A stretch of DNA of 64,000 nt from Candidatus Nitrosotalea okcheonensis (lineage in GTDB: Archaea > Thermoproteota > Nitrososphaeria > Nitrososphaerales > Nitrosopumilaceae), in assembly GCF_900177045.1 (NCBI RefSeq), contig NZ_LT841358.1:1549559-1613558 (forward strand), given 5' to 3'. The notes beneath the pieces were generated by a model. That model was given only the letters and a program-made list of their open reading frames with translations, had not been told where the DNA came from and did no database searches. Below are positions 8,569-51,497 of the stretch, one piece after another; the stretch's first letter is position 1, and each line of letters starts with the position of its first letter. The position numbers and the translations under genes are program-made.

Positions 8569-11409
8569 TTGTATAATTCATCGACCCAGTCCAGCCCACC
8601 ACCACGTGATGCTAGTAAATATGTCAAGGTTGGCATTATTGTTCTAATAGCTATTGTGATTTTTGTCCTGACAAGCAACCAGGCAGTAGTCATGTACATG
8701 AACTCGCAAGAGTTTGGTACTCTGTTTACAAAGCCGCTTTACTTTTCATTGCTCTCTGCAGTGGTCTTGGCATCTATTGCATTGATACGGGTGAACATCA
8801 AAAACCGATCATCAATGTCATGGTATGCCATCAATACCATCCTGACATTCTTCAAGAGAGGTGCAAATTATTCCGTAACAGAAACAATTCCAAGTTTTAA
8901 GGATTACAAACTAAATGTTCCAAACTTTATCATCTGGCAAATAACAAAAGTTGTACTTTTTGGCGCATTCTTTACAAATCTAATGTTTGGATTTGCACTT
9001 GTCTACCTGGTTGATGGGCACAGCTTGGGTATTAACAGCATATGGAATATATTCTCACTTCCATTTGTTACGCCGCCTACTGATCCATCTTACGCTACAA
9101 CGCATGTAGTCCCGATGATTCCGTCACTGACAATTCTTGTTCCTCCAATACTTGCTGTAATAGGTCTCAGACTTGTACTCTATGTGGGACTGCATAACAT
9201 TGTGGGACTGGTTACTAGGTATCTACAAGATGCAGCAAAGGGCAAGCCCAAGGTTCTTGATTATATTTCCACAGTTGAGGCAATAATTGGAATTGGAATC
9301 ATCTGGGCTGGAATTAACATGTTCTTTACAAACCAAATCGATTACAATACCAGGTATGCCATAGGTGGTACACTAGCTGCAGGCTTGGCACTTGTTGCAT
9401 TTTATTTCATTGACAAATTCAAGTCTAGGGTAATCATATTTCCATCAAAACGTGACATCTACATTCGTATACTTGTTTTGGTAATCATTGCACTAGTTGC
9501 AGGTTCCATTATGATGGTAAACAACAGCATTGCAGATGCAAGAAAAATAGAATTTCTTGGTCCATACAAGGCAGAACAGATAGGTGTAAACAGATACCTT
9601 GGACAGTTAGACCAAATAACAGTAGTTCCAGATAATGTAAAGCTAAGCTCTGTTGCGCCAAGCGACATTCCAAACTATGTTGCACAAAATAACGCTCTGT
9701 TAGACAAAGTTCGAGTCTGGGACTGGGATGCAGCATTTGCAAAACTAAAGCCTGAGATTGGCCTCATACCATATGTGAATTTTGAAAATAATGACATACT
9801 GAGATTCAATGATACTCTGTACTGGACTGCATCCATGAAACCAATACTGCCAGATTCAGTTACCCAGGAGAACCAGTGGTACAACCAGCATTTTGTATAT
9901 ACTCATGTTGACAATGGTTTTCTTACCCTTAACGCCCAAAATGGAACAATTGTTGACAGCAACAAATTCTTCAAGCAACGAATGATTTACTATGGAGAGG
10001 GTGGCCTGTTCTCAGAAACATGGGCTGCCTATCCGCAGAACAGACAAACCTCTGCTGAGCTAAACAATGCGACATACAATGGAACCGGAGGAATTGAAGT
10101 CAAGCCGCCAATAAGCCAGCTCTTCGAGCCCAACTTTTTCTTGTCATACCCAACTGAACCAATGCACATACTCAGATACAGGGATGTACATGACAGAATG
10201 CAGCTGCTCTATCCATATTTCCAGTATAACTTGCTTGGAAAACAACTAGATATACTTCCTGTAAGCAATGGACAAAAGACCTACTGGCTTGTACCTTTGA
10301 TTGTAGGTTTTGATACTGGCAATGTCCCATGGTCATTTAGTAATCCGTACCTGAGATTGGTGGGATATGCACTGGTTGACATTTATAATGGCAAGGTCAC
10401 CCTGATAAAAACCGGTGATGACTTTTTCACAGACATGTTTGCAAGTCAATACCACGACCAGTTCATTGACATGCCATCATGGCTTGGAAAACAACTCAAA
10501 TACCCAGAGGCTCTCTTTAACTGGAAAGTTGAGATGTTCAACATTTATCATGTGACTGATCCTTCTACGTTCATACAGGCAAAAGATTTCTATGAAGTTC
10601 CAAACGGTCTTGGAACTTATTATGTAGAAGAGAAACCGCCTGGATTTGACAAGCTAACATATGTAGGCCTACTCTCGCTTGAGCTACGAGGATCTCAAGG
10701 GAGAAACTTGGCAGGATACATGATTGTGCAAAATGATGTTTCAAACCTTGGCAAGATGCAGTTTTACCAAGTTCCGCTTGATTCAAAGACAAAACTTTTG
10801 GGACCAACTGCAGTACGCGAAGCGTTATCAAGAGAATCAGCCTTTGCCCAGCTGCAAACCCTGTTGAGGACTCCTAGAGTGGGAGATAATATTTTGTACA
10901 GGATAGGAAACCAGGACGTTTACTTTATTCCTGTTTATACCGCAGGTTCTGGTGGTGTGGTTACACAGCTAGGAACCATTGCAGCAGTGGGTGCTGCATT
11001 TGATGGTGAATACTTTGTTGGCCTAGGAAATACACCACAGGAGGCATTTGCTGCTTATCTAGCAAAAGTCAGCGGCGTTGCACCAGATACCATCACTGCT
11101 GCACTGCAACTAGACGAATCAACTAGGATATCTACCATAAAAACAATACTTGGTGACCAAAAGATAACCATACTTACTCCAATGTCAATCCAGTTCCCAC
11201 TTACATTTGAGGAAGGCAAGGTGTCCTTTATACAACAATCTGACCTTGGCAATACAAAGAATCTCATATCAGAATTTGTGAAAAACTTTGTACAACAAAA
11301 CAATAACAAGATACTGTTTTGGCAGGAAAACGGTACGGTAAAACTTGGAGCTGTAACAGTAGATAACAGCGTACCGGAACTGCACTATATCACAATAGGT
11401 GTAAGATAG
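8569..11409 (+). CDS. UPF0182-family integral membrane protein
   Basis: 946-residue protein with about seven hydrophobic segments in the first 320 residues and a long, presumably extracytoplasmic, C-terminal region. It matches the UPF0182 (COG1615) family by features such as V-W-D-W-D, FVYTHVDNG, MIYYGE, YPEALF and YHVTDP-FIQ-D-YEVP. No biochemical role is established for the family. TTG at 8569 is chosen because an AAGGAAGG stretch sits about 8 nt upstream. The next two genes follow with no or 15 bp gap, suggesting a shared operon. Confidence 0.85.
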   Translation: MYNSSTQSSPPPRDASKYVKVGIIVLIAIVIFVLTSNQAVVMYMNSQEFGTLFTKPLYFSLLSAVVLASIALIRVNIKNRSSMSWYAINTILTFFKRGANYSVTETIPSFKDYKLNVPNFIIWQITKVVLFGAFFTNLMFGFALVYLVDGHSLGINSIWNIFSLPFVTPPTDPSYATTHVVPMIPSLTILVPPILAVIGLRLVLYVGLHNIVGLVTRYLQDAAKGKPKVLDYISTVEAIIGIGIIWAGINMFFTNQIDYNTRYAIGGTLAAGLALVAFYFIDKFKSRVIIFPSKRDIYIRILVLVIIALVAGSIMMVNNSIADARKIEFLGPYKAEQIGVNRYLGQLDQITVVPDNVKLSSVAPSDIPNYVAQNNALLDKVRVWDWDAAFAKLKPEIGLIPYVNFENNDILRFNDTLYWTASMKPILPDSVTQENQWYNQHFVYTHVDNGFLTLNAQNGTIVDSNKFFKQRMIYYGEGGLFSETWAAYPQNRQTSAELNNATYNGTGGIEVKPPISQLFEPNFFLSYPTEPMHILRYRDVHDRMQLLYPYFQYNLLGKQLDILPVSNGQKTYWLVPLIVGFDTGNVPWSFSNPYLRLVGYALVDIYNGKVTLIKTGDDFFTDMFASQYHDQFIDMPSWLGKQLKYPEALFNWKVEMFNIYHVTDPSTFIQAKDFYEVPNGLGTYYVEEKPPGFDKLTYVGLLSLELRGSQGRNLAGYMIVQNDVSNLGKMQFYQVPLDSKTKLLGPTAVREALSRESAFAQLQTLLRTPRVGDNILYRIGNQDVYFIPVYTAGSGGVVTQLGTIAAVGAAFDGEYFVGLGNTPQEAFAAYLAKVSGVAPDTITAALQLDESTRISTIKTILGDQKITILTPMSIQFPLTFEEGKVSFIQQSDLGNTKNLISEFVKNFVQQNNNKILFWQENGTVKLGAVTVDNSVPELHYITIGVR

Positions 11410-16932: not shown

Positions 16933-19806
16933 TTGATCCAAGATGCCAAACTGTTCAGGGTGCGAAAATTTGATTTTCATTTGAGGCATCTGCTTGTAAT
17001 TGGAATTCTTGCAATTTCATTTTCCATTTCTGCAATGGTTAGGTCCCAGGCTGCTGATTATGGATTTCAACTAAACGAATTTGATCCGTTCTTTAATTAT
17101 CGCGCAACACAATACTTGCTTGACAATGGGCTAAATGCATATGTTCATTGGCACGATACAATGAGTTGGTATCCAGCTGGACGAGATGTTTTTGCTACTG
17201 CCCAAGTTCCATTGCATGTAACTGATGCAGTTTTGTTTAAAATATTTGGCGGCGGAATGAGTCTCTATGACTTTACCATAATTTTCCCAGTAGTCTTTGG
17301 TTCTATGACTGCAGTAGTGATATTTGCCCTAGTACGAGTTTTGGCTGGTACAAGTGCGGGGCTCTTTGCATCACTCTTCTTTGCCCTGTCTCCGCCAATC
17401 ATAGTCAGGGGAACAATTGGCTGGTTCAAGTCTGAACCTCTCGGTTTGTTTTATGGTCTGCTGGGAGTTTACCTGTTTCTTAGTGGAATAAAATCGGAGA
17501 ACAAGAAAATTGCAATATCGAAATTAGTAGGTGGTGGATTCTTTCTTGCAATAGGTTTTGCATCATGGGGTGGAATAGAATTCTTCCTGCTTCCGCTTGG
17601 CATATTTTTCATTGCACTGCCTTTCCTACGAAAAGATCACAATTTCCTGCTCTGGGCAGTTCCATTGTTTGTAATAGTAACCATGGCAATATCTGGAGGA
17701 GTATTTGCAAGACCGGGACCATCCTTTGTGTTTGGTATAAGGGGACTGGTAATGATTGGACCTGCCATATTGCTTGTCATAATAATTTTCATTCAAAAGT
17801 ATAGCAAAGAGCAACATCGCATACGTAACAGCCTGCTTGTAATGGTTGCACTGCTGATAATAGGTAGTGCAGTCTTGTCTGCAACTGCTCTTGGTACCGT
17901 AAGCTTCCGTTATCTTAATGCAATGAATCCCTTTTTGACTTCAGAAGATCCACTGGTTGATTCTGTTGCAGAGCATGCCACCCCCACACTTGCACAAAAC
18001 TTTAGCTACTTTTCGGTACTGATGATTTTTGCGGGCCTTGGAATATGGCTTGTGTTTAGAAAAAAGAACGGGGACCAGAACGCATCAAGATTTTCTCTTA
18101 AAAATGAGATGATTGTATTTGCGTTGATAATTGGTATTGCTGGGGCATATGCGGGATCGACTTTCTCTAGATTAGAATTGCTTACTGCAACTTCCATAAT
18201 CATACTTTCATCCATAGGTCTTGCAGTACTTGTAACAGATATTTTCAAACGGGAAAACAAGCCGGTTCAAGTTGTGGAACCGTCAAAGAAAGGAGGCTCG
18301 TCAAGAAAGGAAACTCCTGTAAAGAAGACAATAGATTTGCTTGGAAGAGTTCCAAAGATAGCATTTGTTGCAGTCATTGTGGCATTACTAGTTGTTCCAG
18401 CTCTGTACCCTGCCAATGCAAACTGGATAGTAATGACCAAGTCTCCGCCTACAATTCTTAACGGGGGATCAAATTTTGCCATCGCTACTGATGACTGGCC
18501 AGATGCCATGAATTGGATTAAAAATAATACTCCGGCAAATTCCGTAATTGCCTCCTGGTGGGACTATGGATATTGGATCCAGACTTTGGGAGGAAGAACT
18601 ACACTTGCTGATAATGCTACAGTTGATACAAACGTCATAGCCAACATTGCAAGGATTCTTCTGAGTTCTCCTGATAAGGCATGGAATATGCTAAACAAGG
18701 CAGGTGCAAACTATGTCCTAGTTTACGTTGTAGGCCAAAAGTTTACCTCAAGCAATCAGGACCTTTACATACTTGGAGGTGGAGGAGACGAGAGCAAGAA
18801 ACAGTGGTTCATGAAAATAGGAGGCCTTGATTCGTCCAAATACCTACAAGATGATTCCTTTACACCCACTGACTATTTCTGGCACGATACTTTGCTTGGA
18901 CAGATGTTTCCGTTTACTCCTCTAACATACTATAATCCCAACACCCACAACGAGTCGCCTACATATACTACGGGCTATACTGCAATTTACTCAAAGACCA
19001 TCAAATATCCTGCAAATGGAACAGGGCCACTACGCCTAGTGTATTCATCCCCAAGTTTGGACAGGAAAGACTCGGGTGTCTTTTCTGGTGTATTGATTTA
19101 TCAGGTCAATCCTGATTACAAGCCTCAAGCAAACTCCAGTACATCACAAGGAAACAGTTCCAGTACACTAGGGGGAATTAGCTCCAGTACATTGCAAGGA
19201 AACAGTTCCAGTACATTGGGGGGAATTAGCTCCAGTACATCACAGGGAAATAGTTCTACCACTATCATAAAACCTGCAACCGCCACAGGTAGCGGTGGAA
19301 ATATTGCAGTGATTGATACAAAATTTGGAGAGATAAAATTCAAATTATTTGATAACGTTGCACCCAAGACAACTGCAAACTTTGTCAAGCTTGCAAATTC
19401 TGGTTTCTATGACGGGACCGTATTTCACAGAATAGTGCCTGGATTTGTAATACAAGGCGGTGATCCTAATACGATAAAAGGTGACAGGAGCACTTGGGGA
19501 CTTGGAGATGCGGGATATACAATTCCTCCAGAATTTAGTACCAGCCTGAATTTCACAAAATACATGGTAGGCATGGCCCGAGGCAGTGATCCAAACAGTG
19601 GCAGCTCCCAGTTCTTTATCACACTTGGTGACGCTCCATGGCTAAATGATCAGTATACTCTATTTGGTCAAGTCATATCCGGCCAAAATGTTGTTGATCA
19701 AATTGCATCACTGAAGACAAGTCCTAACACTAACCAGCCAGTGGATGCTGATTCTGCACGCGTATCAAAAATCAGTATAGAGTCGTCTAACAGTACTGCA
19801 AAATAA
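16933..19806 (+). CDS. aglB: AglB/STT3 oligosaccharyltransferase fused to a C-terminal cyclophilin
   Basis: 957 residues. Residues 1-500 hold about a dozen membrane segments. E-F-D-P-F-F-N-Y (residue ~48) and W-W-D-Y-G (near 540) are catalytic and sequon-binding motifs of STT3/AglB, which transfers lipid-linked glycan to Asn-X-Ser/Thr outside the cell. After a Ser/Thr/Asn-rich repeat linker (about 734-778), residues 785-950 form a complete cyclophilin peptidyl-prolyl isomerase domain: F-H-R-I-V-P-G-F-V-I-Q-G-G-D, MARGSDPNSGSSQFFITL and LFGQV. The isomerase would lie on the extracellular side next to the transferase. TTG start with a TATA-like TTTATAAAC upstream. The linker itself carries N-S-S sequons. 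The fusion is unusual. Confidence 0.92.
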   Translation: MIQDAKLFRVRKFDFHLRHLLVIGILAISFSISAMVRSQAADYGFQLNEFDPFFNYRATQYLLDNGLNAYVHWHDTMSWYPAGRDVFATAQVPLHVTDAVLFKIFGGGMSLYDFTIIFPVVFGSMTAVVIFALVRVLAGTSAGLFASLFFALSPPIIVRGTIGWFKSEPLGLFYGLLGVYLFLSGIKSENKKIAISKLVGGGFFLAIGFASWGGIEFFLLPLGIFFIALPFLRKDHNFLLWAVPLFVIVTMAISGGVFARPGPSFVFGIRGLVMIGPAILLVIIIFIQKYSKEQHRIRNSLLVMVALLIIGSAVLSATALGTVSFRYLNAMNPFLTSEDPLVDSVAEHATPTLAQNFSYFSVLMIFAGLGIWLVFRKKNGDQNASRFSLKNEMIVFALIIGIAGAYAGSTFSRLELLTATSIIILSSIGLAVLVTDIFKRENKPVQVVEPSKKGGSSRKETPVKKTIDLLGRVPKIAFVAVIVALLVVPALYPANANWIVMTKSPPTILNGGSNFAIATDDWPDAMNWIKNNTPANSVIASWWDYGYWIQTLGGRTTLADNATVDTNVIANIARILLSSPDKAWNMLNKAGANYVLVYVVGQKFTSSNQDLYILGGGGDESKKQWFMKIGGLDSSKYLQDDSFTPTDYFWHDTLLGQMFPFTPLTYYNPNTHNESPTYTTGYTAIYSKTIKYPANGTGPLRLVYSSPSLDRKDSGVFSGVLIYQVNPDYKPQANSSTSQGNSSSTLGGISSSTLQGNSSSTLGGISSSTSQGNSSTTIIKPATATGSGGNIAVIDTKFGEIKFKLFDNVAPKTTANFVKLANSGFYDGTVFHRIVPGFVIQGGDPNTIKGDRSTWGLGDAGYTIPPEFSTSLNFTKYMVGMARGSDPNSGSSQFFITLGDAPWLNDQYTLFGQVISGQNVVDQIASLKTSPNTNQPVDADSARVSKISIESSNSTAK
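19132..19260 (+). repeat. Tandem repeats coding for the AglB-cyclophilin linker
   Basis: Units encoding N-S-S-S-T-L-G-G-I-S-S-S-T-x-Q-G repeat two to three times with near-identical DNA (about 54 bp apart). The last copy shows a few base changes. The repeat gives a flexible Ser/Thr linker with several N-S-S/T glycosylation sequons; its copy number could vary between strains. Confidence 0.8.
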
Positions 19807-46163: not shown

Positions 46164-49100
46164 ATGTACAACGAAACAATACGAAAAATAACTAGTCTAA
46201 CACTATTAACAATACTTGTTGCAAGTAGTGCAGTCGTTGGAATGCCAAACGCATTACCACACGTACAAGCACAAACTTCAACAAACGCAAACTTGTTTGT
46301 CTCTGCAGAGAATTCTCAATTCAACAACTACTTTGCCGGTCCTCAAGTAATCCAAGTAGTCGTGGCTGATCCTAATATAAACAGATTAGACCAGGCTTAT
46401 GGTGAACCTGTTGTAACCGTCAACGGTAAGAGACTGAGAATGGCTCAAGGCACAGACGGAAATTGGTATGCGTACTTTGCGGATAGAAATCAGGCAATTG
46501 CTGCCTCCAATACCCAATTGGGTATTACAGGTGAAGGCCTCAACTTTGGTGGATTCTGTGCCCCAACCAGCACCTTAGGTGGTGCACTTGGTGGACTATC
46601 CTTCTCGGATACAAAGGGATTCACCATCGCAAGAGGTGGCTTTGGCTCTACAAATCACACTGCAGGCACTCCAATTACCACAAGTAACTTGGGCGCTTGT
46701 AGTGATTCAGTTGGCACACTGACTACAAAGATGATGGAACATGTTGTGAGAGAAAACAAGACTCTCAACGGTAACCCATCCGGTTTTGGATCCAACAAGG
46801 CAATGACAGAATACGGCCAAATCTGGCCAGTAATTCAGCTCTATGATTTCTCGTCAATTCCATCAGCAGTAACAGTTGATTATCAAAAGAGCGGTGGCGA
46901 CCAAATCGTCAACCTTACCTTTGACAGGATTCCATCGAATCTAATCACTACTACTGTAGACAGAAATGCCTATCCACAAAACTCTCAAGTCTTCGTTCAA
47001 GTAAACGATCCACAACTCAACATTGACCCAACAGAAGATGATTCATGGACATGGGGTACAAGTAGCACAAATAATACATTGTATTATCAGGCATTTACCC
47101 GAAACGGTGCAGTTGATGCAGACGGCACAGCCGGTATGCAGAACCTCATCGGTAACTTGACCACCTTTATGTTCAACCACAATGGAAAGCTCACATACAC
47201 TCCAGCCGCACAAAGCGTCAGAGTGACTGACTTCCAGGCAAACGGTAAGATCATTTACACCGGCACTCAAAGAGGTGCCCCAGCTGCAGTCAGAACTGAT
47301 TCAATTGGTGTTGGCTCGCAACCACTCACACTTAGTGAGCAAGGTGGTGTAAATACTGGTGTCTTTGGTACATGGGACGGTGGAAAGAAATCAAACATTG
47401 TAACAGTAGATTCACCAACAATAAGAGGCCAGTCTTCAGTTGTAAGATACAATGATATCTCTACAAGTATAGTAGGCGGTTTCTCATTTGCTTCATTGAC
47501 ACAGACTGCTCAGAATAATACCTGGGCATCTGGTCAGAGAATCCCGGTAACTCTAACTGACAATGATGATAACAAGAACGCCAAGATTAGCGAGCGAATG
47601 TTCATCTGGGATCCAACCTACAAGAGATCCACAGCAATGGTAATTGGAACTCCATTTACCTTATCTAGCGGCGGCGCAGCTGCCGAATCTGCAATCTTAG
47701 AAGGCAAAGTCAAGATGGCATTTACAACCATTCCAGGTCAAAGAACAATTACCTTTGGACATGGTGAAAATGCCACTGCAACTAACTTGCAAGAGGATGA
47801 ATCATTTAGCGCAAGACCAATATTCAACTTCACAAATCATACTAGCGGAGCAGCAACTAAGATCAATTCTACAAGTGCACTCTTTGTCGATTTGAAGACA
47901 ACCATGAATACCCTGCTAAAGACGATTCACAACACGAATCGTACAAATAACGCAGAAGGATTCAAGGGCTTCAACTTCTTCAATTATGACTTGAGATCAT
48001 TCTCTAGTATTAACGGTGCAACTGGTGGTTCAATATCTAAAGTAGGTGTATACCTTGTATACAGTACTACTTCATTGACTAACAGTACTGGTCATCCATT
48101 GGGTACTCCATTGGCAATCTCTATTGCAAACTCGACATCATTGAAAGATTTCATCAATCTGAATAGTACAGATACTACAAAGATTGCAAATCCATCAATA
48201 ATAAACGAAAACTTGTTTAGCAATATACCAAAGACTGCTAATATTGGACTGTTGATTAACTTCACTGTAAGTGGAGGATCATCAAAACTAAATACTAATG
48301 GTCAACCAATTGTAGCTGACTTCTTCTCCGTAGGTCTAATTGGCGACGGTACACAAAGCGCTCAAAGAATCAACAACGGCATCTACAGGTATGAACTTTC
48401 AGAGACAGGTGACAACACCGGAGTCTTTACAGGTACAAACCAGTATGTAATGCTAAACCAGTTGAACATCTTTGATCCAAATACCTACGCCAATTTAAGA
48501 ACAATTGATCATGACGTGTTCTTCCCAGCTATCCAAGACATGCTCCAGGCAGAAGCCCGTGCTCCACAGGTCACATACTTGGACCTCGGACAAGATGGTG
48601 TGAATACACAGATATCTGCACAGCAAGATATCCCAACTCACACTGGTGTCATTTCATTTGATAGCAAGACATACAAGATAGGCGATACTGTGACAATTTC
48701 ACTCAACGACCCAGACCTTAATGTTAACAACGATCTAATTGATATCTACACTGCAGTAACACCTGCAACCAATTCAAATGGTGCCATCTTACAGACTGCA
48801 CAAGATAATGCAACCGATACAATCGGTAAAGCAAATCTAGGACAGTACTCTGATGGCAGCGCAATTGGAAGACTTGTAGATGTACAATTTGGTCAAGCTA
48901 ACGTTAGATGGTCAAACAGCAAGATTAACAGTCTATTTACACCAGACAACACAGGTTCGTGCTTTAAAAACAGCACAGGATCATTTGTTGACTCTAACAC
49001 TGGTACCACTGGCGGATTTGCAACAAGCTTGTCCGCCACTGGTTTCTCACTAGTTGAGACTGGTCCAGCAACAGGTATCTTTACTGGTACCTTTGAAATT

Positions 49101-51497
49101 CCAGACCAATTGTGCCAATCAGGTACTATAATCTCCTCAGTAGGTCAGAACATCAAGGTCAACTATGTTGACTTTAGAGACAACTCTGGCAAACTCGTAG
49201 AGGTTTCAGATAACTCTGGCATAAGAGGCAACACAGGTTCAGTCAAGTTGGACAAGGCAGTATACCCAGTACCATTTGGCAGCATACAAAATGCTGCCGG
49301 TACTACAGGTGACTTCCCAGCTACAACCAAGTCTGTAACCAGTGAATCAGGTGTATTCCCAATGCACAGAGATCTAACCGGCAATGGTCTAACCACTGCC
49401 AACACTCTGTCAAACGGTGATGTTATAATCCATATCAGAGTAAATGATCAGGACTTTAACACATCGCCAGTTGGTACTGATAAGATTGCACTAGGTGTCA
49501 ATGATGTTAACCACGGCCCAGTAGCTGTACAGATCACAAGACAGAGCTCATCACTATTATTGGCAACAGCTGGAGGTCCAGCAGTATTCCCAGGTACAAT
49601 CGTTAACCTGAACGGTACAGCCCTTCCGGCTATCGCAACAGGTAAAACTGATGCAACATGGGGTCCTGTGAGAGATCTTGGCCCAATGGTCGAGATTGCT
49701 CCAGATGCAGGAATCTTCCAAGCAGACTTGCCAATCAGATATACTGATGGTCCTCAAGGTACGGACTGTCCAAAAACAGAAACAGTATGGACTCCAACAG
49801 ATGGAACTACTGGTACTGCTGAAGGGAACAGATTCCATACCCCACACGGATCTACAACTACTAGCACAGCAGGATTCTACTGTGTAAGACAAGGTGATGT
49901 TCTCACCGTAACCTACACAGACTTGAACGATGCTTCTGGTAATACACAAACTGTCACAGACTCTTCCACATTTGACTTACGAAACGGTGTACTACAATCA
50001 GACAAGTCCGTATACATCATCGGTTCAGACATGATTCTCACACTCGTGGAACCAGACTTGAACCTTGATTCACAGACTGCTGAAACCATCCCACTAGATG
50101 TAATCGAATGGGACTCACATGCCTTCAAGGGCACAATGGGTCTACTTGGTAAACAGTCATCATCATTTGATGCCAAGCCAGCTACATTTGTGGAGACAGG
50201 TAAGGACACAGGTATCTTCCAATCAGTAATTAAAGTTCCAAAACAATTGAACAATAACTTACTTGAGAGAGGAGAACAGATCACTCTAGAATACACTGAC
50301 TGGGGTCCAGCAGGTTCCAAGGTAGTAGGTGCAAATAGCCAAGACATAGATCTTACTATTTACACATCCAACTTTGGTGCAACAGTTGAACTCGATCAGA
50401 AGGTGTACACCTGGACTGACCGTGTCTACATAACCGTAGTCGCACCAGATCACAACTTTGATCCAAACCTTATCGACACCATTGGTTCAACAAACGGTGA
50501 CAAAGTCAGCGTTTCAACCAGAGGAAACAGCATCTCCAACTACAAGTTGGTCGAGACTGGAGTCGATACAGGTATCTTCACAGGTTACGTCATACTCACT
50601 GGTAACGCGAATGTAAAAGGTACCAGCGGTGTTGACGGTAATGGCTTGAACCCAACAGGTGCAGGTCCATCAGGAACAGGTCCAACAGACGGTTTCCTAC
50701 CTTCTGAAGAACAGGACGGTGTATCAGTATCGTTTGAATTCACAAGAGATCAAACAGTTACTGGTTCAGCACTCATCCGATGGAACATTGGAGAAATCAA
50801 GTGGTTGCAGGCAAGCTACCCAGCCAACGGCCAGGGAGTATTGCAGATAGTAGACCCAGACATGAACCTTAATCCAAAGGCAGTCGACAAGTTCGACACC
50901 AACGTATGGTCTGACTCTGATTCTGGTGGTATCAAACTTACCATGACAGAGACAGGTGAAGCAACAGGTATCTTCCAAGGTACAGTGTACTTTACTACAA
51001 ACTTCCAGTCCTCTGGAAACAGACTCCACGTTGCTGAAGGCGATACAGTTACAGGCGAATACAATGATAGAACATTGCCTCCGCCATACACCTCAGCTGA
51101 TCAATTGAGATTGACCTCGACAACATTCATTGGAACAGTTGTGCCACCGCTTGAAAGAGCACCGGCATCAAACCCAAGAATCGTTGACTCGTTTGGCAAT
51201 GCAATCACTGGTGCAGTAAAGACAGGCCAGCAAGTACAAGTTACTGCTGACTTGGCAAACGGCCAGAGCAAAGATCAGCCATTTGCATACTTGGTACAAA
51301 TACAAGATGCTAACGGTGTGACAGTATCACTCTCCTGGATCACAGGTACATTGACTGCAGGTCAATCGCTCAATCCGGCACAATCTTGGACTCCAACTGC
51401 TTCTGGTACATACACAGCTCAAATCTTTGTATGGCAGAGCATTGACAATCCAAACGCATTGTCGCCGCCTTTGACAACTACAATCAACGTAGCATAG
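46164..51497 (+). CDS. Major S-layer protein (giant, multi-Ig-like)
   Basis: 1777 residues. A signal peptide (charged start, helix T-S-L-T-L-L-T-I-L-V-A-S-S-A, end ...V-Q-A-Q) spans about 1-37. The mature chain is built of repeated beta-rich domains that often end in a motif like D-T-G-I-F-T-G or A-T-G-I-F-Q-G (about six copies), each after E-T-G. N-x-S/T sequons are dense, as expected for an AglB substrate. The size, promoter and even codon use match highly expressed thaumarchaeal S-layer proteins that form the cell envelope. No transmembrane anchor is seen at the C-terminus. Confidence 0.9.
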   Translation: MYNETIRKITSLTLLTILVASSAVVGMPNALPHVQAQTSTNANLFVSAENSQFNNYFAGPQVIQVVVADPNINRLDQAYGEPVVTVNGKRLRMAQGTDGNWYAYFADRNQAIAASNTQLGITGEGLNFGGFCAPTSTLGGALGGLSFSDTKGFTIARGGFGSTNHTAGTPITTSNLGACSDSVGTLTTKMMEHVVRENKTLNGNPSGFGSNKAMTEYGQIWPVIQLYDFSSIPSAVTVDYQKSGGDQIVNLTFDRIPSNLITTTVDRNAYPQNSQVFVQVNDPQLNIDPTEDDSWTWGTSSTNNTLYYQAFTRNGAVDADGTAGMQNLIGNLTTFMFNHNGKLTYTPAAQSVRVTDFQANGKIIYTGTQRGAPAAVRTDSIGVGSQPLTLSEQGGVNTGVFGTWDGGKKSNIVTVDSPTIRGQSSVVRYNDISTSIVGGFSFASLTQTAQNNTWASGQRIPVTLTDNDDNKNAKISERMFIWDPTYKRSTAMVIGTPFTLSSGGAAAESAILEGKVKMAFTTIPGQRTITFGHGENATATNLQEDESFSARPIFNFTNHTSGAATKINSTSALFVDLKTTMNTLLKTIHNTNRTNNAEGFKGFNFFNYDLRSFSSINGATGGSISKVGVYLVYSTTSLTNSTGHPLGTPLAISIANSTSLKDFINLNSTDTTKIANPSIINENLFSNIPKTANIGLLINFTVSGGSSKLNTNGQPIVADFFSVGLIGDGTQSAQRINNGIYRYELSETGDNTGVFTGTNQYVMLNQLNIFDPNTYANLRTIDHDVFFPAIQDMLQAEARAPQVTYLDLGQDGVNTQISAQQDIPTHTGVISFDSKTYKIGDTVTISLNDPDLNVNNDLIDIYTAVTPATNSNGAILQTAQDNATDTIGKANLGQYSDGSAIGRLVDVQFGQANVRWSNSKINSLFTPDNTGSCFKNSTGSFVDSNTGTTGGFATSLSATGFSLVETGPATGIFTGTFEIPDQLCQSGTIISSVGQNIKVNYVDFRDNSGKLVEVSDNSGIRGNTGSVKLDKAVYPVPFGSIQNAAGTTGDFPATTKSVTSESGVFPMHRDLTGNGLTTANTLSNGDVIIHIRVNDQDFNTSPVGTDKIALGVNDVNHGPVAVQITRQSSSLLLATAGGPAVFPGTIVNLNGTALPAIATGKTDATWGPVRDLGPMVEIAPDAGIFQADLPIRYTDGPQGTDCPKTETVWTPTDGTTGTAEGNRFHTPHGSTTTSTAGFYCVRQGDVLTVTYTDLNDASGNTQTVTDSSTFDLRNGVLQSDKSVYIIGSDMILTLVEPDLNLDSQTAETIPLDVIEWDSHAFKGTMGLLGKQSSSFDAKPATFVETGKDTGIFQSVIKVPKQLNNNLLERGEQITLEYTDWGPAGSKVVGANSQDIDLTIYTSNFGATVELDQKVYTWTDRVYITVVAPDHNFDPNLIDTIGSTNGDKVSVSTRGNSISNYKLVETGVDTGIFTGYVILTGNANVKGTSGVDGNGLNPTGAGPSGTGPTDGFLPSEEQDGVSVSFEFTRDQTVTGSALIRWNIGEIKWLQASYPANGQGVLQIVDPDMNLNPKAVDKFDTNVWSDSDSGGIKLTMTETGEATGIFQGTVYFTTNFQSSGNRLHVAEGDTVTGEYNDRTLPPPYTSADQLRLTSTTFIGTVVPPLERAPASNPRIVDSFGNAITGAVKTGQQVQVTADLANGQSKDQPFAYLVQIQDANGVTVSLSWITGTLTAGQSLNPAQSWTPTASGTYTAQIFVWQSIDNPNALSPPLTTTINVA

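Follow-up and report, generated by a model that had tools for sequence, protein, structure and literature searches.

In eukaryotes, the oligosaccharyltransferase (OST) complex includes a folding enzyme in the form of the thioredoxin-like subunits OST3, OST6, TUSC3 and MAGT1. The catalytic subunits themselves, archaeal AglB (Archaeoglobus fulgidus 3waj, 7e9s) and eukaryotic STT3A and STT3B, have in common 13 helices, the EFDP, SVAE, WWDYG and DK motifs, and an external C-terminal domain. Prolyl isomerases have been placed beside the human enzyme: of the candidates for an unassigned lumenal density next to OST-A, cyclophilin B fits best (PMC9892003), and FKBP11 binds the OST-A translocon, where it seems to be an adaptor: its catalytic site is buried, and the authors argue against isomerase action (PMC12804085). 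At the archaeal cell surface, the parvulin NmPin of N. maritimus has been proposed to aid S-layer folding (PMC4922055).

Here we describe a gene of Candidatus Nitrosotalea okcheonensis in which an oligosaccharyltransferase and a cyclophilin form one chain. It lies in a 64,000-nucleotide stretch of contig NZ_LT841358.1 (positions 1,549,559 to 1,613,558, forward strand), referred to as the window; the nucleotide coordinates below are those of the window unless a locus is named, and the fusion gene and the S-layer gene are on the + strand. No description of an STT3–cyclophilin fusion was found in the open literature, although domain databases may already list the architecture, and it is absent from a survey of archaeal prolyl isomerases (PMC8530231), a glycoproteomics paper on ammonia-oxidising archaea (AOA) and two papers on the evolution of N-glycosylation.

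Gene and domain organisation

The fusion is encoded by a single open frame at 16933–19806, which begins with TTG and yields a protein of 957 residues, composed of an AglB/STT3 oligosaccharyltransferase, a Ser/Thr/Asn linker and a complete cyclophilin, in that order. Three Pfam families match it: STT3 (PF02516) at residues 46–375 (2.4e-25), STT3-PglB_core (PF21436) at residues 537–587 (1.2e-5), and Pro_isomerase (PF00160) at residues 794–936 (5e-46), the last scoring 157 bits where the cut-off is 21.7 bits. The frame, these matches and the recurrence of the fusion in other genomes (see below) bear out the initial annotation, which had described one frame joining an AglB/STT3 with a WWDYG motif to a full cyclophilin. 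The protein of a close relative (L003, 94% overall) has the same start position and the same end.

The host genome, a single contig of 1.97 Mb with an estimated completeness of 99.8%, contains one STT3, the one that bears the cyclophilin, and two cyclophilins, the second being a free protein of 160 residues; a 98-residue parvulin frame is found as well. The gene has as neighbours S6e, aIF2 gamma, a metallo-beta-lactamase-fold protein, aIF2 alpha, CobO, a geranylgeranyl-reductase-like protein and CobB/CobQ. Since these are translation and cobalamin genes, with no glycosylation genes among them, the idea that the fusion gene sits in a glycosylation operon was rejected. Elsewhere in the window, at 8569–11409, a 946-residue UPF0182 membrane protein of unknown function is encoded.

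STT3 part and membrane topology

An AlphaFold2 model of the fusion protein, built on a 51-row alignment, contains 13 long helices at residues 17–491, followed by a folded external domain that extends to about residue 729. The membrane domain (16981–18405) was delimited from these helices, hydropathy and loop charge, and the external C-terminal domain (residues 498–729; 18424–19119) from Pfam, AlphaFold2 and Foldseek. In Foldseek searches, the STT3 part matched human STT3A, yeast STT3 (8agc, TMt 0.77) and A. fulgidus AglB, and the top solved relative by sequence is human STT3A (1.5e-54).

The acidic metal-site motif E-F-D-P in the first external loop (residues 49–52; 17077–17088) is invariant, D51 included, and the SVSE-type motif of external loop 5, S-V-A-E (residues 344–347; 17962–17973), which is conserved in AOA and outgroups, provides the likewise invariant SVSE/TIXE-type glutamate E347. 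In the external domain, the sequon-binding motif W-W-D-Y-G (residues 542–546; 18556–18570) is invariant, and the conserved D-E-S-K (residues 619–622; 18787–18798), which is the DK motif, aligns with D-I-N-K of human STT3A. From these features, the gene product belongs to the AglB-type oligosaccharyltransferases (GT66) and is predicted to transfer a lipid-linked glycan to sequons. External loop 2 (residues 156–168; 17398–17436) reads K166-S-E168, with the glutamate retained and a lysine at the first acidic position of the second metal motif. The form W-F/Y-K-S-E was present in every member of the Nitrososphaeria sampled (including L121–L145), in contrast to D-N-E in human STT3A, and the missing acidic residue was rejected as a novelty of the AOA because K-S-E occurs throughout the class.

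The loops assigned to the inner side carry 19 Lys and Arg in 72 residues, against 6 in 126 residues for the outer loops, a positive-inside distribution, and hydropathy reveals no hydrophobic segment past residue 501. Provided that the N-terminus is inside, 13 helices leave the C-terminus outside, and the cyclophilin is predicted to be placed outside the cell. A cytoplasmic isomerase was rejected on the helix count, the charge distribution and the lack of a later hydrophobic segment.

Linker and cyclophilin

The linker (residues 730–790; 19120–19302) is rich in Ser, Thr and Asn, contains four sequons (N734, N741, N757 and N773) and is disordered in the AlphaFold2 model, with a pLDDT below 50 at residues 734–788. 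Because of this disorder the model gives no mutual placement of the STT3 and cyclophilin parts. Among 42 fused proteins, the linker is between 14 and 72 residues long, with a median of 35, and its sequence changes fast, Ser, Thr and Asn together making up 47% of its residues. The sequons that the initial annotation had pointed out are present in the window protein; as a conserved feature they were rejected, since only 28 of the 42 linkers have any and 14 have none, despite an overall excess (91 observed against 58 expected from composition).

The cyclophilin domain (residues 791–950; 19303–19782) is modelled with a pLDDT mostly about 90, apart from a dip at residues 885–888, and in Foldseek it matches many solved cyclophilins (3jb9_d, TMt 0.92; 2a2n_A, TMt 0.88). 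The domain is predicted to fold and, by the 13 helices and the loop charge, to face outward, as the initial annotation had supposed. The active-site stretch R833...F838-V-I-Q841 (19429–19455) has its Arg, Phe and Gln in all 42 fused proteins, as is also the case for L904, and F895 is found in 41 of the 42; the active site is intact in what the initial annotation had called a full cyclophilin. We take R833, F838, Q841 and F895 to be the counterparts of R55, F60, Q63 and F113 of CypA; the position corresponding to H126 of CypA is a Tyr in all fused cyclophilins. Between the window protein and six Nitrosotalea-type relatives, the dN/dS of the cyclophilin is 0.07–0.11, the same as that of the STT3 part, and the domain is under purifying selection equal to that on its partner. 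The cyclophilin looks active, and its residues suggest that it would be catalytic. Instead of isomerising, it might bind peptides as an adaptor or holdase and so bring clients or partners to AglB, by analogy with FKBP11, an adaptor at OST-A whose ligand site is buried (PMC12804085); that the catalytic Arg, Phe and Gln are fully conserved goes beyond what binding strictly needs, although the same residues also bind peptide, and we regard this alternative as unlikely.

Distribution of the fusion

A profile of the fused protein matched in 283 of the 296 genomes of the class, and one frame runs from STT3 through cyclophilin in at least 79 of them, a minimum counted by hand among the matches listed. 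The fused genomes span four families of the order (f1, f10, f11 and f13), and several are single-contig genomes. The fusion occurs in the window's genus (g1), in genera g2, g6, g8, g15, g16 and g17, in one of two g3 genomes, in most of family f11, and in single genomes of the deep families f10 and f13, whose members we infer from their tree position to be ammonia oxidisers. Named loci with the fusion belong to Nitrosotalea, Nitrosotenuis, Nitrososphaera, Nitrosocosmicus and some Nitrosopumilales. STT3 without cyclophilin is found in the marine Nitrosopumilus and Nitrosarchaeum types and in the sampled non-AOA relatives. Outside the class, the search for the STT3 and Pro_isomerase pair that had been proposed with the initial annotation gave no fusion in 41 cyclophilin-bearing genomes of the phylum, where the longest frame was 646 residues. 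Genomes without the fusion have no split-off adjacent cyclophilin gene in the flanks, searched up to 6 kb a side.

That the frame is an artefact of assembly or annotation, or that it carries a decaying passenger domain, could be argued from one relative (L021), which has a frameshift between the two parts; this explanation is highly improbable given the number of genomes, several of them in one contig, and a dN/dS of about 0.1. An assembly fusion in particular, foreseen by the initial annotation as a possible flaw, was rejected by the same single-frame architecture in those genomes.

Three further observations were made during the survey. The 646-residue protein outside the class (G505; L193, 181–2118) is solute-binding-like with a C-terminal cyclophilin. 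Genome G282 has two full fused copies (G282:C295 and G282:C35), with a contamination estimate of 8%, and possibly represents two strains. A contig titled Chitinophagaceae bacterium (L051) carries a Nitrosarchaeum-like STT3 and is probably mis-binned.

Origin, losses and other extracytoplasmic cyclophilins

A quick STT3 tree unites the fused lineages with their Nitrosopumilus-type relatives in a single clade with full support, in which every basal lineage is fused and five label changes are required. This is best explained if the fusion arose once, early, at the root of the ammonia oxidisers and was lost several times afterwards. The cyclophilin was lost and AglB retained in the Nitrosopumilus-type clade, in G078, whose STT3 ends in a leftover linker and whose genus mate G077 is fused, and in genus g43, in which the STT3 of two genomes ends after an intact linker with sequons. 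The sequon-rich linkers of g43 (L195, L196) may possibly have a function alone. Five near-complete genomes of genus g38 (G070–G074) have neither STT3 nor any cyclophilin, a double absence that is expected if one gene took both, since their family mate G075 has no cyclophilin besides the fused domain; these relatives of the ammonia oxidisers are apparently without AglB-type N-glycosylation.

The fused domains of f10 and f13 stand apart in the cyclophilin tree, where they group with an anchored cyclophilin of G295 (95/91). A single origin of the fused cyclophilin is not rejected (p-AU 0.138), a value that leaves room for two separate fusions, one in f10/f13 and the other in the rest. Non-AOA relatives (G295, G066, G289, G022, G038 and G029) have a separate cyclophilin with an N-terminal hydrophobic helix and a short polar linker, and this membrane-anchored protein is a plausible donor of the fused domain.

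Many Nitrosopumilaceae, fused or not, also encode a secreted cyclophilin about 515 residues long, which has a C-terminal hydrophobic segment and, by our own reading of the sequence, a PsbP-like middle region. This protein (L147, L148, L159, L175–L180) has a conserved motif of the type C-L-I-A-T-A-A-Y-G-S. In two f11 genomes of genus g42 (L161, L168), the cyclophilin of the secreted PsbP-like protein groups with the STT3-fused ones, which suggests that one of these genes may have received a copy of the domain from the other. In the window's genus, each of the 17 genomes checked has the fused cyclophilin and one or two small free ones; the latter look cytosolic, which would leave the fused one as the sole cyclophilin beyond the cytoplasm. 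The fused domain is the sole cyclophilin in G075, G290, G242 and G284, and G258 and G259 have no cyclophilin of any sort. Most such cells, then, have one extracytoplasmic cyclophilin, which in the window's genus is borne by AglB.

The main rival to a functional pairing is that AglB is a mere membrane anchor, which replaced the ancestral cyclophilin's own transmembrane helix, the two activities being unrelated. The anchored cyclophilins of the non-AOA relatives, the grouping of the f10/f13 domains with that of G295, the tethering of an extracytoplasmic cyclophilin to the PsbP-like protein in other AOA (L147, L148, L161, L168) and the repeated loss of the domain all make this a serious alternative, which we nevertheless hold to be less than probable, as the pairing has been retained for the whole age of the clade though simpler anchors were available, and a non-covalent association of cyclophilin or FKBP with OST-A has been seen or proposed elsewhere.

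The S-layer protein as a possible client

The window also encodes, at 46164–51497, a protein of 1777 residues that the initial annotation had called an S-layer protein. This identification is confirmed by homology over the full length to the cell surface protein 8C8K of N. maritimus (chain A; 1418 bits), and the protein may be a client of the fusion. It contains 20 sequons, of which 19 are N-X-T. Only four of the 20 have a proline within positions −3 to +5, so the case for proline isomerisation at the sequon is not strong.

In Ns. viennensis, which has a single aglB, the S-layer protein and two multicopper oxidases are N-glycosylated; in Np. piranensis, N-glycosylation was not detected and the oligosaccharyltransferase is scarce (PMC12153357). 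Nitrososphaera-labelled loci are fused and most Nitrosopumilus-labelled loci are without the fusion, which agrees with the fusion accompanying active glycosylation in a comparison of two species, their fusion state being taken from genus-labelled loci.

Proposed role

The cell's sole AglB would carry the cyclophilin on its external C-terminal domain via a flexible linker of about 60 residues. Secreted and surface proteins, such as the S-layer protein and copper oxidases, would emerge across the membrane close to AglB, and the tethered cyclophilin would bind their unfolded proline-containing stretches and isomerise or hold them, with folding and sequon glycosylation of one chain occurring at one place. 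We favour such a client-binding foldase tethered at the glycosylation site, and thus functional proximity over a pure anchor, as a reading that is probable, if only just. Its catalytic activity, the identity of its clients and the benefit of the tether to glycosylation or folding are presumed. In its favour stand the breadth of the single-frame architecture, the conserved active site, the purifying selection, the predicted fold and topology, the apparent lack of another extracytoplasmic cyclophilin in the window's genus, and the precedents of cyclophilin B and FKBP11 at OST-A and of NmPin. Counted against it are the repeated loss, the two genomes without any cyclophilin (G258 and G259), the non-glycosylation neighbours, the four of 20 S-layer sequons near a proline, and the buried FKBP11 site at OST-A.

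Glycosylation may be coupled to proline-dependent folding, as the initial annotation had proposed; the coupling is not indispensable, because the cyclophilin has been lost repeatedly while AglB was kept. That the protein is a true bifunctional maturation enzyme, in which AglB and the isomerase work on one and the same emerging chain and the isomerase determines glycosite occupancy and the folding of the S-layer, seems doubtful to us; such an enzyme would be the archaeal, covalent equivalent of what is a loose association of prolyl isomerases with OST in the ER. If the tether matters, the fusion would be evidence from nature of an advantage in joining N-glycosylation to proline-limited folding within a single polypeptide, for which densities close to human OST have so far been the only hint. 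The fusion offers a compact native protein for testing the effect of a folding enzyme on glycosite use, with natural controls in the close relatives that lost the cyclophilin only, and concerns the surface of ammonia oxidisers that abound in soil.

Comparison with known systems

Unlike AglB, STT3A and STT3B, with which it shares its helices, motifs and external domain, the window protein alone adds a cyclophilin on a disordered linker. By sequence and fold searches its STT3 is nearer to eukaryotic STT3 than to A. fulgidus AglB, and it differs from human STT3A in having K-S-E in place of D-N-E in external loop 2. The OST3/OST6/TUSC3/MAGT1 proteins are oxidoreductase subunits, whereas here a prolyl isomerase domain sits on the catalytic chain. 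The secreted PsbP-like cyclophilin of Nitrosopumilaceae and of the Nitrosocosmicus type is likewise extracytoplasmic and belongs to the same wider cyclophilin family but, unlike the window protein, is unlinked to AglB. NmPin is an extracellular prolyl isomerase, as the window cyclophilin is predicted to be, but it is a free single-domain parvulin held by a lysine patch. Human OST-A with FKBP11, or with cyclophilin B as the candidate for the density, offers a loose parallel, in that a prolyl isomerase is likewise placed at an oligosaccharyltransferase on the far side of the membrane; there, however, the partners are separate and transient, and FKBP11 has another fold (PMC9892003, PMC12804085), whereas in the window protein the cyclophilin is covalently joined to the enzyme.
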